NCBI GenBank assembly: GCA_012839235.1
Contig: DUNS01000297.1
Location: forward strand, 1 to 35,196
Origin: Clostridiales bacterium
GTDB taxonomy: Bacteria; Bacillota; Clostridia; Lachnospirales; Lachnospiraceae
Direction: 5' to 3'
DNA length: 35,196 nt
This document shows positions 4,473 to 28,299 of this stretch, one piece after another. Positions within the stretch are counted from its first letter, which is position 1. Each line of letters begins with the position of its first letter. The notes beneath the pieces are model-generated. The model was not told where the DNA came from and did not search any database. It saw nothing but the letters and a program-made list of their open reading frames with translations. A program made the translations under genes and the position numbers.

Positions 4473-4570
4473 TACACTTGATTATTAATAGATATAAGAT
4501 GTATATAAGATAATGAAACTAAGAACCATAGATATATGAGAAATTAATATTATTAAAATTGGAGGTATAT

Positions 4571-5455
4571 ATGACCGATTATATAGTAAGAGCAAGTGCA
4601 GCTGATGGACATATAAGAGCATTTGCAACAACAACAAGAGAGATGACTGAGTATGCTAGAGAGATTCACAATACAAGTCCAATAGCTACAGCAGCATTGG
4701 GAAGAACATTAGCTGCAGGGGCAATGATGGGTATTATGATGAAGGGGGAGAAGGATCTTCTAACCCTACAGATTAAAGGGGATGGACCAATGGGAGGAGT
4801 AACTGTTACTGCTAATTCTAAAGCAGAGGTTAAGGGTTATGTCTACAATCCAGAAGTTATGTTACCCCCTAGTGTAGAAGGTAAATTAGATGTAGGTGGA
4901 GCAATTGGATCTGGAACCTTACGTGTTATAAAGGACTTGGGCCTTAAAGAGCCTTATGTAGGGCAGACTAATCTAGTGACAGGTGAAATAGCAGAGGATT
5001 TAACCTATTATTTTGCTACTAGTGATCAAGTTCCCTCCTCTGTTGCTTTAGGTGTTCTTATGAATAAAGATAACACAGTTAAAAGGGCAGGAGGATTTAT
5101 AATTCAACTTATGCCATTTGCTTCTGATGAGATAATTGATAAGCTTGAAGCAAAGTTAGGACAGATTACAGGTATTACCAACCTTCTAGACCAGAATATG
5201 TCTCCGGAGATGATATTAGAGTATGTCCTTGGGGATTTTGATTTAGAGATACTTGGGAAGGAAGCTACGTCTTATGTCTGCGATTGTAGTAAAGAAAGAG
5301 TTGAGAAAGCTATCATGACAATCGGGGCAGAGGATATTAGTGAAATGATTGAAGATAATGAACCAATCGAAGTAAACTGCCATTTTTGTAACAAAAATTA
5401 TGACTTTTCTATAGATGAGCTAAAAGAGATACTTGAAAAGAGTGGTAAAAATTAG
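4571..5455 (+). CDS. hslO: redox-regulated chaperone Hsp33
   Basis: Holdase chaperone activated by disulfide formation under oxidative stress. It has 294 residues, the usual length. The C-terminal zinc switch is intact: C237-x-C239, then C270-x-x-C273, matching the family pattern of CxC and CxxC about 30 residues apart. The N-terminal domain opens with DYIVRASAADGHIRAFA, typical of HslO. The longer frame starts at a TTG at 4559, but GGAGGT at 4561-4566 is a strong ribosome binding site for the ATG at 4571. It lies between a methyltransferase and a GH94 gene and could be transcribed with the former. Confidence 0.95.
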   Translation: MTDYIVRASAADGHIRAFATTTREMTEYAREIHNTSPIATAALGRTLAAGAMMGIMMKGEKDLLTLQIKGDGPMGGVTVTANSKAEVKGYVYNPEVMLPPSVEGKLDVGGAIGSGTLRVIKDLGLKEPYVGQTNLVTGEIAEDLTYYFATSDQVPSSVALGVLMNKDNTVKRAGGFIIQLMPFASDEIIDKLEAKLGQITGITNLLDQNMSPEMILEYVLGDFDLEILGKEATSYVCDCSKERVEKAIMTIGAEDISEMIEDNEPIEVNCHFCNKNYDFSIDELKEILEKSGKN

Positions 5456-5554: not shown

Positions 5555-7960
5555 ATGAATTTTGGTTTTTTTGATGAGACAAACAAGGAGTATGTCATTA
5601 CTAGACCAGATACTCCAGCACCATGGGCTAATTATCTTGGTTCACCAGAGTACGGTGCAATAATTAGCAACAACGGAGGTGGCTATAGCTTTGTTAAAAG
5701 TGGAGCCAATGGAAGAATAACTCGATATCAGTTTAATCAAGAGGATAAACCGGGAAGATATGTTTATCTAAGAGATGAGGATGATAAGGACTATTGGTCA
5801 GCCTCCTGGCAACCGGTAGGAAAGCCATTAGGAGCAGGCTATGATCAATACCAGAGCCAGTGCTGCCATGGAACAGCCTATACAACAATCAAGGCTCAGT
5901 ACAAGGGTATAGCATCAGAAGTGCTTTACTATGTTCCCCTAGATGAAACCCACGAAGTTTGGCATGTTAAGGTAAAAAACACAGATGATAGACCTAGAAA
6001 TATTTCTGCTTTTGGCTATGTAGAGTTTACCAATGATGATAATTATGAACAAGATTCAATAAATCTTCAGTATACCTTATTTATTACAAAGACTTATTTT
6101 AAAGGAAATAAGATATTACAAGTAATTAATGAGAATACTGAAAGAGATGAAACTGGATCTAATAATATGGAACGCTTCTTTGGATTAGCAGGTGCTAAGG
6201 TAAGCTCATATAATGGGGATAAGTCATCTTTTATTGGAGGTTATAGGAGTTATAGTAATCCCATTGCTGTGGAAAGAGGTAGATGTGATAATGTACTTAA
6301 TTACAATTCCAATAGCTGTGGAGCCTTACATACAACTATGTCCTTAGAGCCTGGGGAGGTAAAGGAATTTACCTTTATCCTTGGTAAAAAGAATGATAAG
6401 GAATCTGCAAAAATAATAGAACGATATGATGATGTTAATAAAGTGCATTCAGAGCTATCAATATTAAAGAAATATTGGCATGAGAAGCTTAATAACTTCC
6501 AGGTAAAAACCCCTGATGAGAACTTTAATGCCATGGTTAATACATGGAATGCATATCAATGCTTTATAACATTCATATGGTCTAGAGCAGCTTCTTTTAC
6601 TTATTGTGGACTTAGAAATGGTTATGGTTATAGGGATACTGTCCAGGATATTCAGGGAATTATCCATCTGGATCCAGCTATGGCAAAGGATAAAATAATT
6701 TTTATGCTTTCAGCTCAAGTTGATAATGGAGGTGGTTTACCTCTAGTTAAATTCGACCATAATGCCGGTCATGAGGATACACCTGATGATCCTTCCTATG
6801 TTCAGGCAACAGGACATCCTGCATACCGTGCAGATGATGCCTTGTGGCTATTCCCAACCATATACAAATATATATCTGAAACAGGAGATACAGAGTTTTT
6901 AGATGAGGTAATACCATTCGCTAATAAGGATGAAGGTACAGTATATGAGCATCTTAAGAGAGCGATTAATTTCTCCATGGAAAGATTAGGAGCACATAAG
7001 ATGCCTGCAGGGCTTCATGCGGACTGGAATGATTGCTTAAGACTTGGAAAGAAGGGCGAATCCACATTTGTAGCTTTACAGCTATATTATGGAATGTCTG
7101 TAATAAAAGATATTGCTCACGGTAAAAATGATAAAGAATATGTAGACTACATTGATAAAGTTCAAGGGGAGTTAAAAGATAGTATTAATGACAATTGCTT
7201 TGAGGGAGATCGTTTTATTCGTGGATTTAAGGAAGATGGTCAGGTTATCGGCTCTAAGAAGGATCCTGAGGCTAGCATGTGGCTAAATCCCCAGTCATGG
7301 GCTGTTATTAGTGGACTTGCTACTAAGGATCAATCTGAAAAAATATTAGAAAGTGTTAATAGGGAACTTAATACAGACTATGGAGTAAGACTCATGGCCC
7401 CTCCCTATAGAGACCATGCATTTGAAGGTGCATTAGCCATATTATTTAATCCTACTACAAAGGAAAATGGTGGTATATTCTCCCAGTCCCAAGGTTGGAT
7501 TATTCTGGCGGAGTCATTAATGGGTAATGGTAATAGAGCTTATGAGTATTTTAAGGAAACCTCCCCAGCTTCAATGAATGATAAAGCTGAAGTAAGAGTT
7601 CTGGAACCTTATGTTCATGGTCAATTTGTGGAAAGCGTTGACAGTCCTTTTGAAGGACGAGCTCATGTTCACTGGCTGACAGGAACTGCATCAACGGTTA
7701 TGGTTGGTTGTGTTGAAGGTATCCTTGGTATGAGACCAGATCCTAATGGGTTAAGAATATCCCCTAGTATTCCAAGTACATGGAATGAATTAACCATAAA
7801 GAAGAAATTTAGAGGCAAAACCTTGAATATTAAGATTTCAAATCCTTCTGGAGCAGAGAATGGATTTAAGGAATTCTATGTTAATGGTGTAAAGCAGGAG
7901 ACTAATTATCTAGCAGAAAAGTTAATGAAGGATAATAACGAAATTTTATTAGTTATGTAG
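5555..7960 (+). CDS. GH94 disaccharide phosphorylase (cellobiose/chitobiose phosphorylase type)
   Basis: Inverting phosphorylase that splits a beta-linked disaccharide with phosphate to give alpha-glucose (or N-acetylglucosamine) 1-phosphate plus a free sugar. It has 801 residues and no signal peptide, so it is cytoplasmic. The N-terminal beta-sandwich begins FGFFDETNKEYVITRPDTPAPW, is followed by a linker, and then by the (alpha/alpha)6 barrel with GYGYRDTVQD (about 357-365). The catalytic loop GLHADWNDCL contains D490 and D493, one of which is the general acid. The loop after DWNDCL is short (RLGKKGES), as I recall for chitobiose phosphorylase, whereas classic cellobiose phosphorylases have a longer insert. 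Specificity is therefore open. The ribosome binding site is GAAAGGTGGG. Confidence 0.85.
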   Translation: MNFGFFDETNKEYVITRPDTPAPWANYLGSPEYGAIISNNGGGYSFVKSGANGRITRYQFNQEDKPGRYVYLRDEDDKDYWSASWQPVGKPLGAGYDQYQSQCCHGTAYTTIKAQYKGIASEVLYYVPLDETHEVWHVKVKNTDDRPRNISAFGYVEFTNDDNYEQDSINLQYTLFITKTYFKGNKILQVINENTERDETGSNNMERFFGLAGAKVSSYNGDKSSFIGGYRSYSNPIAVERGRCDNVLNYNSNSCGALHTTMSLEPGEVKEFTFILGKKNDKESAKIIERYDDVNKVHSELSILKKYWHEKLNNFQVKTPDENFNAMVNTWNAYQCFITFIWSRAASFTYCGLRNGYGYRDTVQDIQGIIHLDPAMAKDKIIFMLSAQVDNGGGLPLVKFDHNAGHEDTPDDPSYVQATGHPAYRADDALWLFPTIYKYISETGDTEFLDEVIPFANKDEGTVYEHLKRAINFSMERLGAHKMPAGLHADWNDCLRLGKKGESTFVALQLYYGMSVIKDIAHGKNDKEYVDYIDKVQGELKDSINDNCFEGDRFIRGFKEDGQVIGSKKDPEASMWLNPQSWAVISGLATKDQSEKILESVNRELNTDYGVRLMAPPYRDHAFEGALAILFNPTTKENGGIFSQSQGWIILAESLMGNGNRAYEYFKETSPASMNDKAEVRVLEPYVHGQFVESVDSPFEGRAHVHWLTGTASTVMVGCVEGILGMRPDPNGLRISPSIPSTWNELTIKKKFRGKTLNIKISNPSGAENGFKEFYVNGVKQETNYLAEKLMKDNNEILLVM

Positions 7961-12091: not shown

Positions 12092-13189
12092 CTAACTTAA
12101 TTCATTAAGAATGACTTGCAGTAATTGGTCATTCTTATCCTGGGTTAGGAAGCAAAATCGAATAAATCTATCAGCTAAGAAAGGAAATGTTGAGCAATTT
12201 CTAATCATATACCCTTTCTTGATAGCGGCATCGAATAAATTAAAGGAGGAGATATCCTCCTTTAATATTTTAATAAGGATAAAATTAGCACTTGGTTTGT
12301 AGTATTTGAGGCCGGAGCAATTATCAAGTATACTGCAGATACGATTTCTTTCTTCTTTTATTAGCTTTCTTGTATCATTGATATACTGCCCGTCAGTAAA
12401 CATGTATTCACCAGCTACTGCAGCCAGAGAATTAATTGTCCATGGATTTTTTCTTTGATTGATTTCCTTAATTAGTTCTTTATTGCTACATATAGCGTAG
12501 CCTAATCTGAGTCCTGGGGCTGCAAAGAACTTGGAGGTCCCCCGCAAGATTATAAGGTTATTATAGTTCTTAGTAAGAGGAACGGATGTTATAGACATTA
12601 AATCATCAACAAACTCTACATAGGTTTCATCTACCATTACAAAGATGTCTTTCTTCTGGCAGATATCTAATATTTCCTTCATGTCATCATTTTTAATGGA
12701 TGTAGAAGTAGGATTATTAGGATTGCATAGTATTAGAAAGTCCACATCCTTTGATAGTTCATGGTCTAAAGAGGATATGTTTAAGGCGAAATCATTATCT
12801 TCATCTAAAGGATAATAGATAGCATCTCCCCCGCCAAGCTTAACTTCCCTTTCATATTCAGAATAAGTGGGACCAATAATAAGTGCTTTTTTAGGACCCT
12901 TAATCTGTATAAACAAAGATATTAACTCCGTAGCACCATTTCCCACAATAATTTTGTCCATATCAATATTAACATAATCAGCAATATGCTTTCTTAGGGA
13001 GCTATATTCCCTATCTGGGTAACTCATAATGGCATCAATTCTACTGGCCAAGCCAGATTTGAGCTTTGGGGAAAGACCAAGGGGATTCACATTATCTGAA
13101 AAGCTAGTTATACTATCTTTCTTAATTCTGTATAATTTTTCAATTGCTTCAAGATCACTTCCGTGAAAATGTTCTGTATATTTAGTCAT
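12092..13189 (-). CDS. PLP-dependent class I/II aminotransferase, CobD/HisC-like
   Basis: Fold-type I PLP enzyme of 365 residues. Visible sites are GNGATELI (83-90, phosphate cup), NPNNP (156-160), D187 in VDETYVEF (pairs with the pyridine nitrogen), K220 in TSKFFAAPGLRLGY (Schiff base) and the following arginine in GLRLGY. The opening HGSDLE and FSDNVNPLG resemble L-threonine-O-3-phosphate decarboxylase (CobD), and the fold is shared with histidinol-phosphate aminotransferase. No cobalamin or histidine genes are nearby to choose between them. AAAGGAGGTCAC precedes the ATG. Confidence 0.8.
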   Translation of the reverse strand: MTKYTEHFHGSDLEAIEKLYRIKKDSITSFSDNVNPLGLSPKLKSGLASRIDAIMSYPDREYSSLRKHIADYVNIDMDKIIVGNGATELISLFIQIKGPKKALIIGPTYSEYEREVKLGGGDAIYYPLDEDNDFALNISSLDHELSKDVDFLILCNPNNPTSTSIKNDDMKEILDICQKKDIFVMVDETYVEFVDDLMSITSVPLTKNYNNLIILRGTSKFFAAPGLRLGYAICSNKELIKEINQRKNPWTINSLAAVAGEYMFTDGQYINDTRKLIKEERNRICSILDNCSGLKYYKPSANFILIKILKEDISSFNLFDAAIKKGYMIRNCSTFPFLADRFIRFCFLTQDKNDQLLQVILNELS

Positions 13190-13367: not shown

Positions 13368-16300
13368 TTGAAGGAAAAGATAGGGCGTTTTTCAAAAGGG
13401 GATTTTGATTATCAGCTACCTTTTATTTATCTTTCTGAAGGCAGCATTGATATTACAATTGAAGCTGGTAAAACACATGAGGGTAGTTTTACTATAAGTA
13501 ATAGTGCTTCCCAGACTATGAGGGGAATTCTGTGCTCATCTCATAGGTTGTTAACCTTTAAGGAAGCTAAATTTGTCGGTTCGGTTAATAAAATCTATTA
13601 TCAATTCGATGGAAGTAATCTAAAGGCTGGAGAAACTATTAAGGGTACAATCAGTATAATTACTGATTGTGGAGAACAGATTCTGGATTTTGTTGTTAAC
13701 ACCGAGGCCCCTTATTTCATGTCACCTCTTGGTAAAATCAAAGATCTTTTTCAATTCGCCAGTTTAGCAAGAATGGATTGGAGCGAAGCAAAAAAAATAT
13801 TTAGATCCGAGGATTTTGAACGGGTATTTTTACAAACTGAAGAAAAATACAAGTCAATCTATCGTAATCTATGTAAAAGTATTTCTACCAGTCAGGCTTT
13901 AGAAGAATTTCTAATAGCTATACATAAAAAATCCAAGGTAGAACTTAATATTGATAAAGTTATACTAGAGTATCAATTGTTTGAAGAGAGTTTGATGGAT
14001 AAATTGACCCTAACTAAGAATCAATGGGGTTATGTAGAGATAAAAGTAAGCACAGATGTAGAGTTTATTCAATTTGAGCAAAAGTTTATATGGGGTGACT
14101 TCTTTTTAGGTAATACTTATCCGGTGTCATTTGTAATAGATCCCAAGAAGATGAGATACGGGAATAATTATGGACGGATATGGATTAAAACTGTTCATGA
14201 GACAATAATGGTTGAAGTAAGATGCTCCCGTCGAAGAGAGATAGAGCAGGATGAGAGCTTAGCTAGACTGTCTTATAAATCCTTTTATAAATTAGGGAGA
14301 AGCTATATAAACTTTAGACTTAATAAAATTGATCGTGAAAAGTATATTGTAGATAGTCGAAGACTTATAGCATTAATGGCAGAGGACCCTGAGGAGTTTA
14401 CTAAAGGGCTGTTATTAACCTACATAGAGATTATCTCTGGTAACATGAAAAAAGCAGAAGATTTGATGAGGGAGTTAGCCCAGCAGGAGGCATTGCTAAA
14501 AAGTAGTTCGATACTTCTTTACTGTGGATATCTTTACCTTAGAACTTTAATATATAATGATGAGACAATTAAAGATGAAGCTAGTAAGGCCATCCGAGGG
14601 TTCTATGAAAGGGGATACCCTGATTGGAGACTTTTATGGTTTCTACTGAACATAGACAAGCAGTATGAAGGGAATAGAAGCTTAAAGCTGGCTCATATTA
14701 AGGAGCAGTTTAAGGGGGGATGCTACAGTCCTATATTATACTATGAGGCAGCAGTAATATATAATGAAGAACCATATCTACTTAATGAAATCAATTCATT
14801 TGAGACACAGGTTCTTAATTTTAGTATAAAAAATTCCTTGGTTACCTTAGATGTAGCCATGCAGTATACATATTTAGTTAATAGGAAAAAGCACTATCAT
14901 CATATGCTGTATAAGGGTCTAGTGATGCTATATAAGCATTTCCCAGAGACAGACATACTATCAGCTATATGCAGCACCCTAATTAAGGGAATTAAAAAGT
15001 CTAAGGAATTTCATAAGTGGTATCGCATGGGGGTTGAGGCACAGCTACCTATTACTGAGCTTTACGAGTACTTTATGTATTCTAGTAATGAGGCTGATGA
15101 TGAGTTGCTACCTCAATCAGTCCTATTATATTATATATATAATAGCAATTTGAACGAAAGAAAAAAGGCATACCTCTATGCCAATATTATTGAGAACAAA
15201 GATAAGATTGAGCCTATATATAGATCATATTTGAAGAAGATGGAAGTTTTTGCAGTAAAGCAATTAGAGGCTCATAATGTTAGTCGCAACTTATCAGTAC
15301 TATATAATGAATTCTTTTCCCATGAGAATATAGATTCCAATGTGGCACATAGTCTGCCCTATGTTATGTATAGAAATGAGATAAGCTGTGATAATCCCAA
15401 CATTACATCTGTTGTTGTAATACATGATGAGTGGGAAGAGGAAGAAAGTGCTCAATTTGTTGACGGTAAGGCATTGGTTGATATTTATACTGATCATGCC
15501 AAGATATTCCTTGTAGATTCTATAGGAAATCGTTATCTTAAGTCAGTGGACTACGCCAAAGCACCCCTTATGAAGTCGGAAGACTTTGAAACAAGTTGTA
15601 TGGAATATAGCAATCATCCAAAGCTACTACTTCATCTTTTTAATAGGTTTCAGAATTATCGCATAATCAATGAAAAGTCAATATCTATAAGGAAGAAAAT
15701 ATTGTCTATAGAAGGGCTACCAGAACTATATTACTATGATTGCTTGGAGGATTTAGCCGAATACTATTATGAAAACTATGATGATGAGCAATTAGAGTAT
15801 TATCTTAGCCTAATTGATATTCATAGGGCTAGACCTGAGAAGAGAATCAGGCTATTGGAATATATGGTGAGAAGAGGACTATATTCTAAGGTTCAAGATG
15901 CTATCCAAACCTTTGGTTATGAAGATATTTCTATAAATCTATTAGTCAAATATTGCTCAGGATGGTTGGATAATAGCAATGAAGATAATAAAGAGGAATT
16001 TGTGCTGGATCTATGTACTTACGCTTTTTCCAAGCATAAGTATGATGAAGCTATATTAAAATATTTAGTACGATATTATCATGGATCCACTAGGGAAATG
16101 TTTGAAATATGGAAAGCTGCTATAAAGTTTGAAGTCGATACTCGAAAGATAGAAAAACGACTACTGGTCCAGATGCTTTTCACCGAGGGATATGTCCAAG
16201 GAAGCTTTCTAGTATTTAATGAATATTATAAAAATGTTACGAACCGCTTGATTGTTAGGGCATTCCTATCATTTTATGCATATAAATATGTGATTCATGG

Positions 16301-16916
16301 ATGGGTAATAAACAAAGAGCTTTTTCCTATTATGAGGAGAGAGTTGAATTATGAGGAAAATGATCTATGTCTAATTGCCTGGCTAAAATATAATTGCAAG
16401 AATAAAGGGCTTTCAGATAATGATAAAGCATTTATTGAGTACCAAATTCATCGTTTGGTTAAAAAGGGTACTATACTACCATTCTTTACAGAGTATAGTG
16501 AGATTATAAAGCTTCCAGAACGAATTATTGATAAGTGCTTTGTGGAATATAAGACTGACCCTCGTAAACAAGTATTTATCCATTATCGTTTATTAAATAA
16601 TGGAGATTCAGAAGAGTATATTACAGAGAAGATGCCTAATGTGTTTATGGGTATTCACCTTAAGGAATTTGTACTTTTTTATCATGAGATACTTCAATAC
16701 TATATAACTGAGGAATATGGGGATGATGTAATAGTTACAGAAAGCTTTCAGCTTCATCATGATACTACCCCTTCAGAAGGTGAATCAAGGCATAACCAGA
16801 TAAACCTGATGCTTATGACAAAAGAAATGAATGATGATACAACCCTTTTAGAGCTTATGGAGCAGTACGTTCGAACTGACTATTTTATAGGACAATGTTT
16901 TCAGCCGATTGATTAA
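13368..16916 (+). CDS. giant DUF5717-like protein: two beta-sandwich domains plus long helical region
   Basis: Function unknown; 1182 residues, no signal peptide and no membrane segment seen. Residues about 17-115 form a beta-rich domain (EAGKTHEGSFTISNSAS, then LKAGETIKGTISIITDCGE). Residues 215-288 form a second domain of similar build (YPVSFVIDPKKMRYGNNYGR). From about 300 to the C-terminus the protein is almost entirely helical with many aromatic residues, consistent with a TPR-like solenoid. I recall this architecture as DUF5717 of Lachnospiraceae, but could not search. The start is a TTG with GAGGTGAT ahead at normal spacing; no early ATG is available. It heads a four-gene same-strand cluster with the Hsp70-like, TPR-like and membrane coiled-coil genes. 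A scaffold role is inference. Confidence 0.75.
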   Translation: MKEKIGRFSKGDFDYQLPFIYLSEGSIDITIEAGKTHEGSFTISNSASQTMRGILCSSHRLLTFKEAKFVGSVNKIYYQFDGSNLKAGETIKGTISIITDCGEQILDFVVNTEAPYFMSPLGKIKDLFQFASLARMDWSEAKKIFRSEDFERVFLQTEEKYKSIYRNLCKSISTSQALEEFLIAIHKKSKVELNIDKVILEYQLFEESLMDKLTLTKNQWGYVEIKVSTDVEFIQFEQKFIWGDFFLGNTYPVSFVIDPKKMRYGNNYGRIWIKTVHETIMVEVRCSRRREIEQDESLARLSYKSFYKLGRSYINFRLNKIDREKYIVDSRRLIALMAEDPEEFTKGLLLTYIEIISGNMKKAEDLMRELAQQEALLKSSSILLYCGYLYLRTLIYNDETIKDEASKAIRGFYERGYPDWRLLWFLLNIDKQYEGNRSLKLAHIKEQFKGGCYSPILYYEAAVIYNEEPYLLNEINSFETQVLNFSIKNSLVTLDVAMQYTYLVNRKKHYHHMLYKGLVMLYKHFPETDILSAICSTLIKGIKKSKEFHKWYRMGVEAQLPITELYEYFMYSSNEADDELLPQSVLLYYIYNSNLNERKKAYLYANIIENKDKIEPIYRSYLKKMEVFAVKQLEAHNVSRNLSVLYNEFFSHENIDSNVAHSLPYVMYRNEISCDNPNITSVVVIHDEWEEEESAQFVDGKALVDIYTDHAKIFLVDSIGNRYLKSVDYAKAPLMKSEDFETSCMEYSNHPKLLLHLFNRFQNYRIINEKSISIRKKILSIEGLPELYYYDCLEDLAEYYYENYDDEQLEYYLSLIDIHRARPEKRIRLLEYMVRRGLYSKVQDAIQTFGYEDISINLLVKYCSGWLDNSNEDNKEEFVLDLCTYAFSKHKYDEAILKYLVRYYHGSTREMFEIWKAAIKFEVDTRKIEKRLLVQMLFTEGYVQGSFLVFNEYYKNVTNRLIVRAFLSFYAYKYVIHGWVINKELFPIMRRELNYEENDLCLIAWLKYNCKNKGLSDNDKAFIEYQIHRLVKKGTILPFFTEYSEIIKLPERIIDKCFVEYKTDPRKQVFIHYRLLNNGDSEEYITEKMPNVFMGIHLKEFVLFYHEILQYYITEEYGDDVIVTESFQLHHDTTPSEGESRHNQINLMLMTKEMNDDTTLLELMEQYVRTDYFIGQCFQPID

Positions 16917-16958
16917 ACATGACAGGGTGGTTGATCTTTTTCTCCCGGGCTTTTGAGA

Positions 16959-16990
16959 CACTACATGGCGGCATCATGTGAGTTTAGTGT
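16959..16990 (+). repeat. leader hairpin with TTTAGTGTGAA box before the Hsp70-like gene
   Basis: ACATG/CATGT flank a 7-nt loop (16963-16979), with an outer ACACT/AGTGT pairing across a bulge. The 3' side carries TTTAGTGTGAA (16983-16993), which recurs at 18301 and, as GTTAGTGTGAA, at 9601. Confidence 0.4.
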
Positions 16991-17027
16991 GAACAAAAAT
17001 TATAGGATGAAAGGCAAGGATACTAAG

Positions 17028-18287
17028 ATGGACAAGTATAGAAAACTAATCATAGGGTATGACCTATGTGAAGACTTTACCCAGGTTAGTTGCTATAGCT
17101 ACAAGCAGCATGAGCCAATTACAATAAGTGATAAAGATGATGATAATGGCTTAATACCAACAGTACTATGTGTTAAGCATGATACTAAACAATGGCTTTT
17201 TGGTGAAGATGCTCTTAGCTGTGCATTTGAAAATGAAGGAATATTGATTGACAACATTCTTGCTAAAATAAAATCTAATGAAGAGACAATTATTTATGAT
17301 CAGAAATTCTCTGGAATTAATCTTTTGGAGAAGTTTCTTCGGAAATCACTAATGCTGGTTAAAAAATATTTTCCCACTGAACCAATTACTAAAATAGTTG
17401 TAACTATTAGCAATTCTGATCCCCATTTAGTTAATGCCATCTATGAAGCCTTGTATCTTCTAGGAATAGATAAGGATCGAGCAGTTATAATAAGCCATGC
17501 GGGTGTGTATATGTACTATGCCTTAAGTCAAGAAAGGGCCCTATGGATGAATGATGTGGGCTTATTTGACTTTGATGAAACTGGGCTTAATTATTACCAG
17601 ATACATATTAATCGAAACACAAGGCCTATTGTAGCAGGGCTTATAAAGAAGGATCTTACAGATATTTTAACTATTGACATGTTAGAAGATAAGAACATAG
17701 ATCTTGGATATGTCTTTTGCAGTGCAGCTGATAGGATTTTATATAAGCAAATCATATCAACCCTATACTTTACGGGTAAGGGCTTTAAGGGGAATTGGGC
17801 TGAAGATGCTATTAAAAGTCTTTGCCGAGGGCGAAGGGCCTTTATTGGGCAAAACTTATATACTAAGGGAGCATGCTACGCAGCTAAGGAGTTGTCTGGT
17901 GATAGGGAGTTAAGTGATTATATTCTTTTAAATGAAGAAATGATTACATGCTCCATATGGATCCGTGTATATAAGGATGGTAAAGTGAAAGAGGTTCCCA
18001 TCAGCGAAGCAGCAGTAGAATGGTATTTGGTGAAACAAAATATAGAGGTTATACTTGATAATGAGGCAGAGATAAATCTTATATTAAAAAATATCATGAC
18101 AAAGGAAGTTGTTAGAGAAAGGTTAGTATTAAACCAGCTTCCTGAACGGCCAAGGAGAATGACTCGTTTAGACATTCACATATCCTGTTTGAGCAATTCT
18201 CAGTTAAAGGTTGATATCACTGATTTGGGATTTGGTGAACTTTATCCTGCCAGTGGACATGTATGGGAGTTTGTATTAGAAATGTAA
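17028..18287 (+). CDS. degenerate Hsp70/actin-fold protein, DUF5716-like
   Basis: 419 residues; function unknown. It can be laid out as an Hsp70. IIGYDLCEDFTQV (8-20) sits where Hsp70 has IGIDLGTTNS, and PTVLCV...WLFGEDAL (44-63) where it has the early P-S-V...VGEEA stretch. IVVTISNSDPHLVNAIYEAL (123-142) with the following ISHAG fits the VITVPAYF region, and GLFDFDETGLNYYQI (178-192) fits DLGGGTFDVS. The C-terminal RPRRMTRLDIHISCL..QLKVDITD resembles the substrate-binding beta-sandwich. The glycine-rich phosphate loops are not conserved, so ATP use is doubtful. There is no helical lid. Upstream in-frame starts exist (TTG 16953, ATG 17007); 17028 follows GAAAGGCAAGG. I recall such proteins as DUF5716, not checked. 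Confidence 0.7.
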   Translation: MDKYRKLIIGYDLCEDFTQVSCYSYKQHEPITISDKDDDNGLIPTVLCVKHDTKQWLFGEDALSCAFENEGILIDNILAKIKSNEETIIYDQKFSGINLLEKFLRKSLMLVKKYFPTEPITKIVVTISNSDPHLVNAIYEALYLLGIDKDRAVIISHAGVYMYYALSQERALWMNDVGLFDFDETGLNYYQIHINRNTRPIVAGLIKKDLTDILTIDMLEDKNIDLGYVFCSAADRILYKQIISTLYFTGKGFKGNWAEDAIKSLCRGRRAFIGQNLYTKGACYAAKELSGDRELSDYILLNEEMITCSIWIRVYKDGKVKEVPISEAAVEWYLVKQNIEVILDNEAEINLILKNIMTKEVVRERLVLNQLPERPRRMTRLDIHISCLSNSQLKVDITDLGFGELYPASGHVWEFVLEM

Positions 18288-18300
18288 AGAAATGAGGGCG

Positions 18301-18351
18301 TTTAGTGTGAAAGATAAGACTTTCACAAGTGAATGGTATTCACAATTCACT
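18301..18351 (+). promoter_or_regulatory. tandem palindromes in the leader of the TPR-like gene
   Basis: TTTAGTGTGAA begins the block. TGTGAAAG (18306-18313) pairs with CTTTCACA (18320-18327). GTGAAT (18329-18334) can pair with ATTCAC (18338-18343), or AGTGAAT (18328-18334) with ATTCACT (18345-18351). The last two foldings exclude each other. It may be an attenuator-like RNA or a protein-binding array of GTGAA half-sites. Confidence 0.4.
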
Positions 18352-18373
18352 TTGCAAATATTGTGCTCTATGC

Positions 18374-18439
18374 TACATGAAAATCAGAGATTTTCATGTA
18401 TAAAGTTTGCAGGCTGTGATGAAAGGGATGGTTATTAAC
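18374..18439 (+). repeat. leader repeat, copy B, ending at the TPR-gene start
   Basis: Perfect 12-bp hairpin TACATGAAAATC / GATTTTCATGTA with an AGA loop (18374-18400), then AAGTTTGCAGGCT and GATGAAAGGGATGGTTATT before the ATG. It matches copy A at 1959-2020 before xylB in the hairpin core, the TTTGCAGGCT block and the initiation block. Confidence 0.7.
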
Positions 18440-19264
18440 ATGGGCAACTTAATATTGTGTAGTGGAGAACGTACTAGTAGACCTTATGTGTTTCCATCCT
18501 CTAATTTTCGTATATATTCTATAGAGGAATTATGCTATTATTTATATAATCATGTATACTTGATAGAGGAAAGCTTAATCACTGATTCATTAATTGATTG
18601 GATAGGTACTGAATTAAAGCTCACTGAAAGGTCCCAAAAGCTGAAGAACATGAAGGAACAAGGGGCGGATATTAAAACCATTGTTACTTGTATCTTATGT
18701 AGCTGTGATTATTATAATGAAGGTGAGATTAAGGACATATTAAAGGTTTTAGATACTATTATCGGAATGCCTTTAGTAAAGAGAAATATTATTAGAGCTA
18801 CAGAATTTCTTAAGAATAAAAAATACTTGGAGTCCTTAAGGGCTTATGAATTAATACTTAGCTCAGAGGGTGCAACTGATTTGACCTCAGAGGAGTACGG
18901 CAGTATTCTTCATAATATGGGAGTGGCTTTGGTAAATACAAAAGGATTGTCATCTGCTAGTGAACTATTTCTTAGAGCTTATGAGAGAAATCAGCGGGAG
19001 GAAAGTCTTAAGCAATATCTCTATACCATTAAGCTAAAGGGAGAAGATATTGATAAGGAATTAGAGCAACTACAATTGGATGATAGCTTAAAGAAGGAGA
19101 TAGATAACAATATTGAAATAATATTTGAAGAGGCTAATGAAAGTCATAGTATGTCACGTATAAAGCGATTAAGACAATATATAGCTGAAGGAAAGATAGC
19201 AGAGTATTATAGGGATGTAGATGAGACTATAGAAAAGTGGAAGGTAGCAGAAAGACCATTATAA
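18440..19264 (+). CDS. TPR-like helical protein of the Hsp70-like cluster
   Basis: 274 residues, soluble, function unknown. The N-terminus MGNLILCSGE...PYVFPSSNFRIYSIEELCYYLYNHVYLIEE is a compact motif I associate with uncharacterised Lachnospiraceae proteins. Residues about 112-190 are paired amphipathic helices with TPR character (KKYLESLRAYELIL, then YGSILHNMGVALVNTKGLSSASELFLRAYE). The C-terminal 80 residues are highly charged helix. The longer frame begins at a TTG at 18407, but the conserved leader repeat ends at the ATG at 18440, which I take as the start. Only 20 bases separate its stop from the next gene's start, so the two are surely cotranscribed. A co-chaperone-like or adaptor role is inference from the neighbours. 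Confidence 0.7.
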   Translation: MGNLILCSGERTSRPYVFPSSNFRIYSIEELCYYLYNHVYLIEESLITDSLIDWIGTELKLTERSQKLKNMKEQGADIKTIVTCILCSCDYYNEGEIKDILKVLDTIIGMPLVKRNIIRATEFLKNKKYLESLRAYELILSSEGATDLTSEEYGSILHNMGVALVNTKGLSSASELFLRAYERNQREESLKQYLYTIKLKGEDIDKELEQLQLDDSLKKEIDNNIEIIFEEANESHSMSRIKRLRQYIAEGKIAEYYRDVDETIEKWKVAERPL

Positions 19265-19284
19265 AGAAAGGCATGGATATAAGA

Positions 19285-20472
19285 ATGGGGTTCCTAGATA
19301 TTTTTAAAAAGGGAGAAAGTAGGGAGGAGAGGAATAGCTCATCAGGAAGTGTTAAAACTACAACTGCCAATGTCAACTCTAACAGTATGGAGCAGCTAGG
19401 GTTTATTAAAGAAAATTGTGATATGATCGCAGAAAGTGATCGTCAGATAGCAGAAGCTAAAGTTGAATATCAGGCAGTAACCTCCTATCTTACTGATATG
19501 CAAAAGATTGATATGATTCCAAGGGATCAAAGAGAAAATCTTGAGGATGCGGCTAAAAAAATTTACAACCTTACTTTGGAGAGAAACAAATTCCAGGAAA
19601 ATCACACCAGAATATTGGATCGACAGTATCGGATTTTTGAGCGTTATGAGTTGCAAATACCAAAAGAATTGCCTTCTATTAAAGAAAAGGAAGAATATCA
19701 GAAAAAAATAGATAAGGACATAGAATATCTGGAAAATGAGAAGCATATTCTGGCTGAGGAAAAAGAAGATATTATTGGCAAGCAAGGATATCTTAGGTCT
19801 ATTGCCATTGCAACAAGCGTTGTTGTGGTACTATTGTTTATGCTTTTTGCATTTCTTGGAAGAGATGATAATCTTAACCTTTCAATTCCTTTTCTACTTA
19901 CAGTGCTTATGGGTATGGCATCCGCATTTTATATTTTTATGGAGACCAGAAAAAATAATTATGATTTTCAATTAGTACAATTAAAGCAAAATAGACAGAT
20001 TGTTCTTATGAATAAGGTGAAGATTAAGTCTGTTAATAACTTAAATTACTTGGACTATACATACAATAAGTACATGGTGGACAATTATGAGGATTTAAAG
20101 TCACTGTGGGACGAGTTTATAATGCTTAAGGATGTGATAAAGCGATACCAGAGTAATACTGAGATGCTGGAGTTCTATAATAAAGAGCTGGTTGATGAAT
20201 TGAATAGATTCGATGTTGCTGATGCAGAAATATGGATATATCAACCACTGGCTATCCTTGATAATAGAGAAATGGTAGAAATCAGACATAGACTTAATGT
20301 TCGCAGACAAAAGCTTAGGGACAGAATGGATGCCTCCATGAAGCAAAAGGAGGAATCATTGGAATTAATTAATTCAGTAATTAAGGCTAATCCTCAGTAT
20401 AAGAGTGAAACTAAAAGACTTTTGAAAGAGTATGGAATAGTAAGTCGGGGTAGTTTAAAGGTTGAAGAATAA
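19285..20472 (+). CDS. coiled-coil protein with two transmembrane segments
   Basis: 395 residues, function unknown. Layout: a short amphipathic start MGFLDIFKKG, a Ser/Thr/Asn-rich linker to about 35, and charged coiled coil from about 40 to 165. A hydrophobic segment at 172-192 (SIAIATSVVVVLLFMLFAFLG), a short loop and a second at 200-218 (IPFLLTVLMGMASAFYIFM) form a hairpin through the membrane. A long helical C-terminal part follows. Both termini are therefore on the same side, probably the cytoplasm. Alternative starts lie at 19237 and 19273; MGFLDIFKKG at 19285 is chosen as a typical N-terminus after GAAAGGCATGGATATAAGA. It is the last gene of the cluster and could anchor the soluble partners at the membrane (inference). 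Confidence 0.7.
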   Translation: MGFLDIFKKGESREERNSSSGSVKTTTANVNSNSMEQLGFIKENCDMIAESDRQIAEAKVEYQAVTSYLTDMQKIDMIPRDQRENLEDAAKKIYNLTLERNKFQENHTRILDRQYRIFERYELQIPKELPSIKEKEEYQKKIDKDIEYLENEKHILAEEKEDIIGKQGYLRSIAIATSVVVVLLFMLFAFLGRDDNLNLSIPFLLTVLMGMASAFYIFMETRKNNYDFQLVQLKQNRQIVLMNKVKIKSVNNLNYLDYTYNKYMVDNYEDLKSLWDEFIMLKDVIKRYQSNTEMLEFYNKELVDELNRFDVADAEIWIYQPLAILDNREMVEIRHRLNVRRQKLRDRMDASMKQKEESLELINSVIKANPQYKSETKRLLKEYGIVSRGSLKVEE

Positions 20473-20506: not shown

Positions 20507-20539
20507 ATTAGTTAATTATCATATGTTAAATGTATTGAT

Positions 20540-20770
20540 GGAGAGGATAGATAAGTAGGGCTTATCAGAGAGGATTACCCACCGGCTGAAAGGTGATCTA
20601 AAGCAAGCTTGCCTATTGTAGCTCTTGAACAACATTTCTGAACCCTTATGGTGCGTAGGAAGTGTCGGGAAGTCCCGTTATAGACAAAGAGATGGAGAGG
20701 TGTATTTTTTATCTCCATGAATAAAGGTGGTACCACGGTTCTTCGTCCTTTGGGATGAAGAACCTTTTTT
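20540..20770 (+). promoter_or_regulatory. T-box riboswitch, valine specific (GUA specifier), with terminator
   Basis: tRNA-sensing leader that allows read-through into valS when uncharged tRNA-Val accumulates. The T-box AAAGGTGGTACCACGG is at 20723-20738. The competing terminator is GGTTCTTCGTCC (20737-20748) with GGATGAAGAACC (20753-20764), followed by six T. In stem I, AGAG (20542-20545) pairs with CTCT (20622-20625) and GTAGG (20555-20559) with CCTAT (20612-20616). The internal loop between them holds GTA at 20618-20620 followed by a purine, a valine specifier that fits the downstream gene. The apical hairpin CACC-GGCTGAAA-GGTG is at about 20580-20595. Confidence 0.95.
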
Positions 20771-20827
20771 GTTTTATTAACTTTATTAGATTTAATTATG
20801 GAAATTAAGAATGAAAGGGAGACATTT

Positions 20828-23488
20828 ATGAACAAGGAACTAGCAAAAACCTATGATCCAAAGGATATTGAGGACAGAAGGTATCAAGAGTGGATAAAGA
20901 ACAATTATTTTCATGCTGATGTGGATAAAAGTAAAAAACCATTTACTATTATTATGCCACCTCCTAATATAACAGGTCAATTGCACATGGGTCATGCCTT
21001 AGATAATACCATGCAGGATATTTTAATTCGTTTTAAAAGAATGGAAGGATATAACGCCCTATGGCAGCCAGGAACAGATCATGCCAGTATTGCTACGGAG
21101 GTTAAGATTATTGAGCAATTAAAAGAGGAAGGCATCGACAAGGAGGAGCTTGGTAGAGAAGGCTTCTTGGAAAGAGCTTGGCAATGGAAGGATGAATACG
21201 GCGGAAGGATCATATCTCAGCTAAAGAAGCTGGGTTCCTCTTGTGATTGGGAAAGAGAACGCTTTACTATGGATGAGGGCTGCTCACATGCTGTTACTGA
21301 AGTGTTTATTAAGCTATACAAAGAGGGCTATATATATAAGGGCTCTAGAATAATTAACTGGTGTCCAGTATGTCAGACATCAATATCCGATGCTGAGGTT
21401 GAGCATGAGGAACAGGCAGGTCATTTCTGGCATATTAAGTATCCCATTGTAGATAGTGATGAATTTGTTGAGATAGCTACAACCAGACCAGAGACCATGC
21501 TTGGTGATACTGCGGTTGCTGTTCATCCAGAGGATGAAAGATATAAACACCTAATTGGTAAGATGGTTATGCTTCCTTTAGTTAATAAAGAAATTCCAAT
21601 CATTGCAGATAGCTATGTTGATAAGGAATTTGGTACTGGTGTAGTTAAGATTACACCTGCCCACGACCCTAATGATTTTGAGGTTGGTAAAAGACATAAG
21701 CTTCCTGAAATTAATATCATGAATGATGATGCTACTATTAATGAACAGGGTGGCAAGTATGTTGGAATGGACCGTTACGTTGCAAGAAAGCAAATTGTAA
21801 AGGATCTAGATGAATTAGGATTGTTGGTTGAGATAGAGGATCATGAACACAACGTAGGTACCCATGATCGCTGCCATGCAACGGTTGAGCCTATGATTAA
21901 GCAACAGTGGTTTGTTAAGATGGATGAGCTTATAAAACCAGCAATAGAAGCGGTTAAAACCGGTGAAGTTCAGTTCGTTCCAGAACGTTTTGACAAGATA
22001 TACTTTAACTGGACTGATAATATAAGGGATTGGTGTATATCCAGACAGCTTTGGTGGGGTCATAGAATTCCAGCATATTACTGTGATGGATGTGGTGAAA
22101 TCATAGTTGATAAAGAGGAACCTTCTAGATGTCCTACCTGTGCTAGTACTAATCTAAGACAGGATGAGGATACTTTGGATACTTGGTTTAGCTCTGCTTT
22201 ATGGCCATTCTCCACCCTTGGCTGGCCTGAGAAGACTGAGGATTTGGATTACTTCTATCCAACAGATGTATTGGTTACAGGATATGATATCATATTCTTC
22301 TGGGTAGTAAGGATGGTATTCTCAGGATATGCTCATATGGGAGAGAAACCATTTAGCAAGGTATTAATCCATGGACTTGTTAGGGATTCTCAAGGAAGAA
22401 AGATGAGTAAATCCTTAGGTAATGGTATTGATCCCTTAGATGTGATAGATAAATATGGTGCAGATGCTCTGCGCTTCACCTTAATTACTGGTAATGCCCC
22501 TGGTAATGATATGCGTTTCTATTGGGAAAGAGTAGAGGCAAGTAGAAACTTTGCTAATAAGGTATGGAATGCATCCCGTTTTATAATGATGAATCTTGAA
22601 AAGGCTCAGATAAGTGAGACTATTGATGAAAGCTTATTAACAATAGCCGATAAGTGGATACTTTCTAAGGCTAATACTCTTGTTAAAGAAGCCACTGACA
22701 ATATGGATAGCTTTGAATTGGGTATCGCTGTTGGTAAGATATATGACTTCATCTGGGAAGAATTTTGTGACTGGTATATAGAAATGGTTAAACCAAGGCT
22801 ATATAGTGAAAGTGATGAAACCAAGGCTGCAGCCTTATGGACCCTTAATAAAGTACTTGTTACCTCTCTTAAGCTTCTCCATCCATATATGCCATTTATC
22901 ACAGAGGAGATATTCTGTACCTTGCAGGAGATGACTGGCATAGAGGAAGCAAAGTCTATAATGATTGCCAAATGGCCAGAATATAAGAAGGAATATAGCT
23001 TTACTAAGGAAGAGGAAGCAGTTGAGATGATCAAGGCAGCAGTAAAGGGTATCCGTAATGTACGTACTGATATGAACGTTGCCCCTAGTAGAAAAGCCAA
23101 AGTTATCGTAGTATCAGATAGTGATAAAATCAGAAGTATATTCACTGAAGGCAAGATATTCTTTGGTACCTTAGGATTTGCTAGTGAAGTATTAGTTCAA
23201 GAGGATAAAGCAGGTGTTCCTGAGGATGCAGTATCCACAGTTATTCCAGGAGCAGTAATATATATTCCATTTGCTGACCTAGTAGATATTGATAAGGAGA
23301 TAGAGCGTCTAACTAAAGAAAAGGAAAGACTGACAGGAGAGTTAAAGCGTGTTAATGGTATGCTCGCCAATGAGAACTTCGTAAAGAAGGCTCCAGAAAG
23401 CAAGATTGAAGAAGAAAAAGCGAAGCTTGCTAATTATACTGACATGATGAAGCAGGTATCTGAGAGACTAGAGCAGTTAAGTAAATAA
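20828..23488 (+). CDS. valS: valyl-tRNA synthetase
   Basis: Class Ia synthetase that charges tRNA-Val in the cytoplasm; 886 residues. [15 protein letters not shown] (45-58) contains the HIGH-type motif HMGH, and KMSKS is at about 525-529 ([16 protein letters not shown]). Between them lies the CP1 editing domain, with [19 protein letters not shown]. Cysteine pairs in [10 protein letters not shown] and in CDGCGE...CPTC suggest zinc knuckles. The C-terminal 70 residues form the tRNA-binding coiled coil typical of ValS ([20 protein letters not shown]). An in-frame ATG lies at 20798, but GAAAGGGAG precedes the ATG at 20828, where the family begins. Expression is controlled by the upstream T-box. 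Confidence 0.97.
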
Positions 23489-25790: not shown

Positions 25791-25911
25791 TATACAAATT
25801 ATTTTAAATATTTAGTAACCCCAAAACCATATAGCATCTTGTGAGCTTATATATACTGAAGATGCATAATATAACCCATTGATGAAATCTTATAACAGAA
25901 GAGGTAGAGAT

Positions 25912-28299
25912 ATGATAAGAGCAACATCCAATAATGAATATTATGAATTGAACAGTCCAACGATTATGCCAAAAGCTTCAGGCTTTTTATGGAATGAAAA
26001 TATGATGCTACAATTAAATTGCCGTGGTTATGTAGTAGCTCAGTTTATGCAACCTGAGCCTGCAAAGTACTCCCATGCTCCAAACCTTGAGGCAAAAACA
26101 TTTATGCAACCTGAACAACCGTATTATGCACATCATCCTGGACGTTTTATATATGTAAAGGATGAAGATGATGGTAGTGTTTTTTCAGCACCATATGAAC
26201 CGGTTCGAGTTTCTCCAGATAAGTATACATTTTCTGTGGGGAAGAAGGATATTAAATGGATAACAGAAAATAATGGGATTGCTATTGAAATGTGCTTAAG
26301 TCTTCCCAAAGAGGATCCCCTAGAGATGTGGAGGATAAAAGTAAGAAATCTTTCTCAAAATAAGAGAAAGATTAGCATATATCCATATTTTACAGTAGGC
26401 TATATGTCTTGGATGAATCAAGAAGGTGAATATAAGGAGGAGTTACAGGCTATTGTTTGTTCATCTGTAACTCCTTATCAAAAGTATAAAGACTATTTTA
26501 CAATCAAGGATTATAAAGATAAAACCTTTTTGTTGGCTGACAAAAGGCCAACTTCCTGGGAAGCTAATCTGGAGAGCTTTGAAGGGGAGGGAGGAATAAC
26601 ACAGCCGACATCTATTATGAATGACCTATTGTCTAAAGGTGATGCACGTTATGAAATGCCCCTTTGTGTATTTCAATATAAATTAGAAATGGACCCAAAT
26701 GAAGAAATAGAATATAGGTTTATATTTGGACCAGCTAAGAATGAAGAAGAGATAGATTCTATCCGCAACAAGTACTTTATTGATGGGAAGCAATGTGGTA
26801 AAGATGGATTTGAGTTAGCCCTAGAAGAATATGATCAATATATTGCAGATGGCAAAGGCTGTATCGAGATTGAAACTCCGGATAAGGATTTTGATAATTT
26901 TGTGAACCATTGGCTACCAAGACAGCTTTATTATCATGGCAAAACAAATCGCCTTTCGACTGATCCACAAACCCGTAATTATTTGCAGGATAATATGGGG
27001 ATGAGCTATATAAAACCGGAGATAGCTAGAAAAGCGTTGTTAATTGCTTTAGGACAACAGCATGAGAGTGGAGCGATGCCAGACGGCATAAAATTACATA
27101 AGGATGCTGAGTTGAAATATATCAATCAAGTGCCACATACGGATCACTGTATTTGGTTACCTATCAGTATAGAGCTTTATCTGGATGAAACAGACGATTA
27201 TGGAATACTTAATGAAATAGTTCCGTTTTCTGAAGGTAAAGAAACAGCTACAGTTTTTGAGCATATTAATCGTGGTATGTACTGGCTCATAAAGGATAGA
27301 GATGAGCGAGGCTTGAATTATATTAACCAAGGTGATTGGTGTGATCCAATGAACATGGTGGGTTATAAGGGCAAGGGTGTTTCTGGATGGCTAACTATTG
27401 CTACTGCTTATGTATTTCGTATCTGGTCAGATATATGTGAAAAGTTTGGTAGGCTAGATAAAGCTAATGAATTTAGAGAGGAAGCAAGAAAGACAAAGGA
27501 AAACATTAACAAATACTTATGGGACGGTAAATGGTATGCCCGGGGAATAACCGATGATAATATACTGTTTGGAATAAGTAAAGATAAAGAGGGCAGTATT
27601 TATATCAATCCTCAGGGATGGGCATTACTTAGTGGCTCCGTTGACGAAGAAAAAAAGGAGTCAATATTGAGATCTGTTCAAGAGAAACTTGAAACACCTT
27701 ATGGTGTAGAAATGCTGGCTCCTGCATATACTGGCATGCGTGAGGATGTGGGCAGATTAACGCAGAAATATCCAGGATCTGCTGAAAATGGTGCTGTCTA
27801 TAATCATGCGGCGGCATTCTATATATATGCGTTATTTTCTATTAATGAAAATGAAAATGCATACAGATTATTAAGAAAAATGCTTCCAGGTCCTGACTTG
27901 GATGATGCCATCCAAAGAGGACAATTGCCTGTATTTATACCCAATTATTACCGTGGTGCTTACAGACAAATTCCAAGAACTGCAGGAAAATCAAGTCATT
28001 TATTTAATACAGGGACAACTACGTGGTTCTATCGATGTCTTATAGATGGTTTATTTGGTCTGCAGGGAAATCGAGAAGGTCTTTCTATTAAGCCACAGCT
28101 TCCTTCTGACTGGAAAGAAGTTAAAGTAAGACGCTATTTTAGAGGTGCAAAATTCAATATTTATATCAAGCAAGAATCTGATATTAATAATATGGAAATA
28201 TATGTTGATGACCTTCTAATTGATGATGGAATTATCAGGAATATAAAACCTGGCAAGCAGTATAATGTTCTTGTAAGTATACCATCATCAAAACAGTAG
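25912..28299 (+). CDS. GH94 phosphorylase, probable cellobionic acid phosphorylase
   Basis: 795 residues, cytoplasmic. Cellobionic acid phosphorylase splits 4-O-beta-glucosyl-gluconate with phosphate into glucose 1-phosphate and gluconate. The N-terminal domain reads [15 protein letters not shown] and [19 protein letters not shown]. In the (alpha/alpha)6 barrel, [10 protein letters not shown] (355-364) replaces the RDxxQD block of cellobiose phosphorylase, and the catalytic loop is [20 protein letters not shown] (473-492) with D475 and D478 in place of DWND. From memory these are traits of the cellobionic acid subgroup, not of cellobiose or chitobiose enzymes. A TTG upstream (25879) extends the frame, but GAAGAGGT favours 25912. 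The acid-type regulator before it and the dehydratase after it support the assignment. Confidence 0.75.

Follow-up and report, generated by a model that had tools for sequence, protein, structure and literature searches.

A DUF5717-DUF5716 gene cluster of a Clostridiales bacterium as a probable reduced form of a multi-Hsp70 operon

Four adjacent genes on contig DUNS01000297.1 of a Clostridiales bacterium (GenBank assembly GCA_012839235.1) raise the question of where the proteins DUF5717 and DUF5716 come from and what they might do together. The stretch analysed here, 35,196 nucleotides long, is referred to as the window. Its four consecutive open reading frames (ORFs) on the forward strand (13368-16916, 16953-18287, 18407-19264 and 19237-20472) were confirmed where an earlier note, made from the sequence alone, had placed a same-strand cluster encoding a large protein with two beta-sandwiches and a helical region, an Hsp70/actin-fold protein, a protein resembling tetratricopeptide repeats (TPR) and a coiled-coil protein with a membrane hairpin. 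The note had named the first two as DUF5717 and DUF5716, and Pfam agrees: the 1182-residue protein matches DUF5717_N (953 bits) and DUF5717 (319 bits), and the second protein matches DUF5716_C (333 bits). Pfam gives no match above cut-off for the third and fourth proteins, and NCBIfam none for any of the four. We propose that the cluster is a reduced form of a dedicated Hsp70 machine, now serving as a static assembly or holding platform and not as a folding motor, and give this reading a probability of about 0.6; the derivation is drawn from sequence comparison and the function is proposed from it.

A profile of 20 DUF5717 proteins, run against 146 genomes of the order, matched 74: 15 from the window's family, which we take almost certainly to be the Lachnospiraceae (as the Pfam families suggest and as fits the number of genera), and 59 from sister families. 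In the latter DUF5717 usually appears as two separate matches, at about 1-290 and 300-1184, and the genes belong to a larger operon. Its order is 17N and 17C (the two parts of DUF5717), Hsp70-A (HspA), a GrpE-domain protein (GrpEx), Hsp70-B (HspB), Hsp70-C (HspC), an Hsp70 with a vWA domain (Hsp70-vWA or HspV) and a TPR protein, followed in some loci by a membrane coiled-coil protein, and then valS, with gaps mostly below 60 nt. Loci were mapped in 37 of the 59 genomes. At 17 of these the run 17C-HspA-GrpEx-HspB-HspC-HspV-TPR is uninterrupted, with 17N upstream, fused or unrecognised; among the 17, HspV and TPR of G874 are each in two ORFs, and the runs of G886 and G949 each include an additional predicted ORF. 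G987 has the full order except for an unrecognised TPR gene. Eleven loci run into the end of a contig or stretch, six have 17N-17C and the remaining genes on other contigs, and two are reduced (G884 to 17N-17C-HspB, G938 partly). The split genomes (G894, G961, G968, G975, G982 and G997) keep the parts in blocks on different contigs; GrpEx, HspB, HspC and HspV, as identified by size and order, share one contig in G975 and G894. Where the membrane coiled-coil gene is present in sister loci, valS follows it in six of eight, 66-74% identical to the window's valS. Since this right-hand border is the same, the window appears to keep the ancestral layout minus its middle.

At one sister locus (L103) Pfam assigns 17N and 17C to DUF5717_N and DUF5717 and finds HSP70 in Hsp70-A (1.8e-77), Hsp70-C (2.5e-57) and Hsp70-vWA (2.5e-95, with vWA at 1.3e-10). 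GrpE (1.4e-14) lies within the last 130 residues of GrpEx, and a solved GrpE is matched by the profile of GrpEx at 8.6e-7. The seven operon proteins of this locus gave no DnaJ or GTPase match (Pfam, E <=0.01); an HPD tripeptide occurs in 8 of 23 Hsp70-C rows and 1 of 21 Hsp70-vWA rows, and the scan of L103 shows no J domain. In Hsp70-vWA (e.g. L103:12517-14673), 0 of 18 vWA domains have the canonical DxSxS metal motif.

DUF5716 corresponds to Hsp70-B of this operon. Full-length alignment of the two with hhalign gives a probability of 100 and E 3.9e-57, the window protein aligns pairwise with Hsp70-B of G874 at E 1e-34, and Hsp70-B of L103 matches both DUF5716_C (1.8e-25) and HSP70, PF00012 (1.9e-16). 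In a tree of 65 Hsp70 rows out of 122, a branch supported at 100/100 separates Hsp70-B and DUF5716 from DnaK, Hsp70-A, Hsp70-C and Hsp70-vWA, and the operon position of Hsp70-B fits orthology. On alignment, tree and position together, DUF5716 is the predicted orthologue of Hsp70-B. Its profile also matches DnaK chains over the whole chain (E 3.6e-6).

ATPase residues were read from an alignment to E. coli DnaK, whose numbering is used here, and motifs were counted in Hsp70 rows of >350 bits and >400 aa, which excludes, for example, the Hsp70-B rows of G279 and G987 (66 and 44 bits). Hsp70-A, Hsp70-C and Hsp70-vWA keep K70, E171, D194, G196, G197 and T199 in 29 of 29, 22 of 22 and 18 of 19 rows. 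In DUF5716, K70, E171, T199 and the phosphate-1 (TTN) residues T12 and N13 are each present in 0 of 21 rows, D194 in 14 and G341 in 21; among 24 Hsp70-B rows, K70, T199, T12 and N13 are each absent from all and E171 occurs once. Subdomain IIB of the nucleotide-binding domain (NBD), which we take to be residues 229-306 of DnaK and to hold the adenine lobe and the GrpE docking site, is 12-24 residues long in the 21 DUF5716 rows versus 71-90 in the other groups and 78 in DnaK. Behind the beta part of the substrate-binding domain (SBD-beta) DUF5716 has a median of 16 residues versus 141 in DnaK, and no alpha-helical lid. A DnaK-like lid is missing in all four operon Hsp70 groups, with the vWA domain in its place in Hsp70-vWA, and the DnaK linker motif (LLLDVT) is unconserved in all four, DUF5716 included. 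Read in this way, DUF5716 is an Hsp70 homologue over NBD and SBD-beta with a predicted dead ATPase site, subdomain IIB deleted and no lid. Calling it an Hsp70/actin-fold protein had been right about the ancestry and had understated it.

The DUF5717 protein consists of a part with two beta-sandwiches (17N, residues ~1-300) and an alpha-solenoid or TPR-like part (17C, ~300-1182), which are separate genes in the sister families with ORFs of ~400 and ~900 aa. The window protein matches those of G874 pairwise at E 5e-37 (17N) and 3e-90 (17C), and by homology it is a fusion of the two sister-family proteins. Against PDB sequences the 17C profile finds designed TPR proteins (E 2.4e-5), and the profiles of DUF5717 (best E 0.22) and 17N (best E 0.087) find nothing significant. 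An AlphaFold2 (AF2) model of residues 1-307, made from two sequences, has a mean predicted local distance difference test (pLDDT) score of 59, and its sole confident domain is the second beta-sandwich (191-290; block means 81-92, one block 68). Foldseek of this model gave 323 PDB matches at E <=0.001, with ciliary central-apparatus proteins on top. The second beta-sandwich matches domains of HYDIN, CEP192 and the central apparatus, most clearly as a single domain the HYDIN PapD-like domain 2e6j (template modelling (TM) score 0.75 by target, 1.8 A over 106 columns). Because the long alignments have low TM scores and large root-mean-square deviations, the domain type alone can be read from this result, and the model suggests a PapD/ASH-like Ig domain. 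In G279 DUF5717 is 853 aa long and is without the N-terminal part.

Within the family the cluster is near-universal. Of 299 family genomes, which almost all come from different genera, 293 have DUF5716 (242 of the 245 of good quality), with two matches in seven genomes and one in the rest. Three of the six genomes without it have DUF5717 (G387 and G417 at a contig start, G435 at full length) and three have neither (G318, G380 and G512), so at least one of the two occurs in 296 of 299. Family loci were chosen mainly from the best-scoring DUF5716 matches, with some divergent ones (G137, G279, G332 and G357). The order DUF5717-DUF5716-TPR is kept at 22 of 22 other family loci (20 fetched neighbourhoods and two more divergent genomes), beyond what chance would give; in the neighbourhood survey that the earlier note had proposed, the first three genes are adjacent and not scattered. 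At one locus (G332:C1, L135) DUF5716 and TPR are a single 684-aa ORF, a gene fusion which supports an interaction of the two proteins. A genome-contig scan with a single DUF5716 protein found one locus (L001), and scans of viral contigs with the DUF5717 and DUF5716 profiles found no relatives.

In a class sample PF18980 (DUF5716_C) matches 10 of 291 genomes, all ten in the window's family (0 of 281 others), and PF18983 matches the same ten; in a phylum sample 5 of 299 genomes match, four in the family and one with a sub-cut-off match. These searches had led us to regard the system as confined to the family, and the earlier note had likewise called it specific to a clostridial lineage. Both views were overturned by the profile search of the order, which showed that sister families have homologous operons, in which a GrpE-domain gene stands with as many as four Hsp70 genes; the class and phylum samples had misled because they hold very few sister-family genomes and the Pfam profiles are less sensitive. 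As far as these comparisons reach, it is only the compact fused form that is family-specific. An extended 17C profile matched 10 of 216 genomes of the class, seven of the family and three others, the latter only over a TPR-like stretch of 130-160 residues (E 9.6e-4 to 3.9e-6).

Presence counts in the 146 order genomes, which share ancestry and are not independent, indicate what was lost. Fifty-eight have 17N/17C together with GrpEx (E <1e-30), two have GrpEx only (G912 and G979), 70 have neither, and 16 have 17N/17C without GrpEx, namely the 15 family genomes and G884. GrpEx is thus found in 0 of 15 family genomes versus 58 of 59 sister-family genomes having 17N/17C; the count leaves out ten further weak matches, of which nine cover the GrpE end and one (G899) another part. 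In four family genomes, the window's included, PF00012 found DnaK and shorter actin-like proteins of ~340 aa, and the operon Hsp70s were not found; order genomes without 17N/17C (G060 and G262) likewise have DnaK and ~340-aa proteins. The pattern in the window's family is, on these homologies, one of 17N and 17C fused, the pseudo-Hsp70 and TPR protein kept, the membrane anchor retained at about one locus in two, and the GrpE-domain protein and intact Hsp70s putatively lost. G884:C115 (L133), which has 17N-17C-HspB and no GrpEx match, is apparently a separate second reduction to the same core.

The TPR assignment of the third protein is supported by its relatives. The window protein itself has no TPR match, and Pfam TPR_2 matches 16 of the 20 aligned members, window included, at E <=1 (best 1.2e-8); hhalign against the sister TPR protein gives 3.7e-18. 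The membrane hairpin holds as well, with two hydrophobic segments in 10 of 11 homologues of the fourth protein and the same two stretches visible by eye in the window protein. This protein matches that of G874 pairwise at E 1e-33, and its profile has no significant match among PDB sequences (best E 0.18). In a class sample of 148 genomes the profile matched 5, all in the window's family, and the gene lies 3' of TPR at 8 of the 37 mapped sister loci, which rejects an invention of the family; a derivation from the GrpE-domain protein is unsupported (hhalign probability 0.13). Its standing as a universal part was rejected too, because it is missing in nine of 20 family genomes, in which a whole-genome search found no copy elsewhere in place of an adjacent one.

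We suggest that DUF5716 no longer runs an ATP/GrpE cycle; with no hydrolysis, exchange factor or lid it could only hold or position. A specific client or sub-complex would be held in place by its SBD-beta-like domain together with the surfaces of the DUF5717 beta-sandwiches and solenoid; the TPR protein would couple this to partners, and the coiled-coil hairpin protein, where present, would tether the assembly to the membrane. The near-universal retention of DUF5716 argues for an important role. We consider it slightly better than an even bet that the family made a nucleotide-independent scaffold out of a four-Hsp70 machine, by losing its motors, its exchange factor and, from the Hsp70 that stayed, the lobe to which the exchange factor docks; that this near-universal remnant is probably important for growth; and that the full operon encodes a multi-Hsp70 complex, so far undescribed, whose paralogues (one of them with a vWA domain) act together on a single scaffold.

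Several observations weigh against a motorless platform of this kind. The membrane coiled-coil gene adjoins TPR at just 12 of 23 family loci (11 of the 20 and the window; not G332 or G357), so that tethering cannot be general; of the membrane-associated chaperone-like or scaffold machine put forward in the earlier note, a chaperone-derived multi-protein system stands, and general membership of the membrane protein does not. The genome-wide loss of intact Hsp70s was tested in just four family genomes, the Hsp70 tree drew long-branch warnings from the tool, and the match of the DUF5716 profile to DnaK is weak per stretch (i-Evalues 0.0035 and 11). An AF2 model of DUF5716 from two sequences was poor (mean pLDDT 44.5) and was not used. 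Hsp70-B keeps D194 in 23 and G341 in 24 of 24 rows, which leaves nucleotide binding possible, at least in the sister families.

Canonical DnaK was kept in all four family genomes tested and TPR proteins often partner Hsp70s. The cluster might be a co-chaperone platform that, having lost its own Hsp70s, uses the TPR protein or the solenoid of DUF5717 to recruit housekeeping DnaK/GrpE, much as non-canonical Hsp70s of the Hsp110 or Ssz1 kind help canonical ones. The DUF5716 profile touches 'putative heat shock protein' entries, presumably of the Ssz1 type, though at E 0.77-1.3. We regard this as a tentative alternative, with about one chance in five, since no J domain is present in the seven L103 operon proteins or the window's four, the linker motif of DnaK is unconserved in the operon Hsp70s, and DUF5716 has no subdomain IIB to dock GrpE. 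Slightly more doubtful is an envelope, division or cytoskeletal assembly, in which actin-fold DUF5716 and ASH-like DUF5717 would form a membrane-attached scaffold, as proteins with ASH domains do in cilia and centrosomes. The matches to HYDIN, CEP192 and the central apparatus favour this idea, together with the hairpin protein at about half of the family loci. Against it, domains of the ASH/PapD type are found in interactions of many kinds, just one domain of the model is confident, and the 20 family neighbourhoods show no link to division or envelope genes.

A conflict or defence system, finally, would overlap with these operons in its parts, which include Hsp70, GrpE, vWA, TPR and beta-sandwich proteins; examples are the Hsp70-GrpE theme of GAP1-N2 neighbourhoods and the Hsp70-like part of CoCoNuTs (PMC7159879; PMC11090510). 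Such a role is highly improbable for a cluster found in 293 of 299 family genomes, mostly as one match, with a fixed order and no variable effector seen, and the scanned L103 operon proteins have no GTPase, McrB/C or nuclease domain. In PADLOC 0 of the 4 window proteins match at E <=0.001; PDC-M61B gives weak matches (4e-5 to 5.5e-9) to three intact Hsp70s of the sister families, probably by way of the generic Hsp70 part. A defence island was rejected on its near-universal presence, fixed order and lack of a PADLOC match of the window proteins. The reduced Hsp70 machine is the reading that we prefer.

Likely true starts of the window genes were judged from homologue alignments and upstream sequence (Table 1). 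With the third and fourth genes moved to their new starts, their apparent overlap turns into 20 nt of spacing, and DUF5716 and TPR lie ~152 nt apart. Between DUF5716 and TPR there is a perfect AT-rich inverted repeat of 11 bp, whose loop measures 3 nt and which no T run follows (18375-18399). Between 13000 and 21000 there are six terminator-like sites, compared with 3.1 (standard deviation 1.9) in shuffles; none falls in the gaps between the four genes, as the earlier note had said, and the strongest (20737-20764) is upstream of valS. A T-box leader at 20526-20753 scores 91.2 bits (E 8.5e-21), just below the gathering score of 93, and is therefore not listed in the whole-window scan at the Rfam gathering threshold. 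The four genes are probably one transcription unit, bounded from valS by the T-box leader and attenuator.

Table 1. Positions of the cluster genes and their downstream border in the window.
Feature	Position	Strand	Remarks
DUF5717 protein, 1182 aa	13368..16916	+	17N/17C fusion; Pfam DUF5717_N and DUF5717
DUF5716 protein, predicted pseudo-Hsp70	17028..18287	+	ORF as listed from 16953; ATG 17028 preferred
TPR protein	18440..19264	+	ORF as listed from 18407; ATG 18440 aligned with homologues
Coiled-coil protein with two-helix membrane hairpin	19285..20472	+	ORF as listed from 19237; ATG 19285 aligned with homologues
T-box leader (20526-20753) and attenuator terminator (20737-20764) of valS	20526..20764	+	Downstream border of the cluster
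valS	20798..23488	+	Outside the machine; ancestral right-hand neighbour

Immediately upstream of the cluster is a divergent hisC-like aminotransferase gene (12092-13189), and the same divergent neighbour is present at 8 of 20 family loci. Apart from the cluster genes these 20 loci have no conserved neighbour; ordinary housekeeping-type families come next in frequency, at 11, 10, 9 and 9 of 20. The window also holds an Hsp33 chaperone gene 8 kb upstream of the cluster (4559-5455) and two GH94-type phosphorylase genes (5555-7960 and 25879-28299).

If the preferred reading holds, DUF5716 and DUF5717 gain an evolutionary identity and hence roles that can be put to the test. A graded set of natural forms exists within the order: the full multi-Hsp70 operon, operons split into blocks or partly reduced, and the motorless remnant. 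Comparing them makes it possible to study what paralogous Hsp70s contribute to one another and what is left to a chaperone without ATP. The family is very large and ecologically important, and because nearly all of its members carry the remnant, the client of the remnant would be a good candidate for a core process of this lineage.

No description of the sister operon or of DUF5716 or DUF5717 function was found in open-access papers; the closest literature also includes PMC11019930 and PMC8265645. The GAP1-N2 Hsp70-GrpE theme of PMC7159879, known from Firmicutes and Actinobacteria, brings Hsp70 and GrpE together with TPR and a beta-sandwich protein in one neighbourhood, and vWA genes occur in another theme of the same GTPase-centric class. 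The sister operons share the Hsp70, GrpE, beta-sandwich and TPR parts with the theme as described there, but differ in having four Hsp70s and beta-sandwiches that look ASH/PapD-like rather than FNIII, and the system is conserved and near-universal in one family rather than mobile; the seven L103 and four window proteins, which the search covered, have no GTPase or DnaJ/TPR-fused FNIII match. CnuD of CoCoNuT (PMC11090510) has an Hsp70-like NBD and SBD with degenerate motifs and helical-repeat partners. The cluster resembles it in all of these respects and differs in having no McrB/McrC or HEPN partner among the operon proteins scanned.

Compared with canonical DnaK-GrpE, the sister operons are alike in their three Hsp70s with complete motifs and their GrpE-domain protein, and DUF5716 in its homology over NBD and SBD-beta. 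They are unlike it in having no J domain in the proteins scanned, no lid and an unconserved linker motif, and in placing four different Hsp70s side by side, one with vWA, of which the window's family keeps only the one predicted to be ATPase-dead. Ssz1 of the ribosome-associated complex is a degenerate Hsp70 that serves as a structural partner, having neither a lid nor a working ATPase cycle. No zuotin-like J protein is present in the proteins scanned and the similarity of DUF5716 to Ssz1 is only at E ~1, but DUF5716 is likewise a degenerate Hsp70 without ATPase residues or lid.

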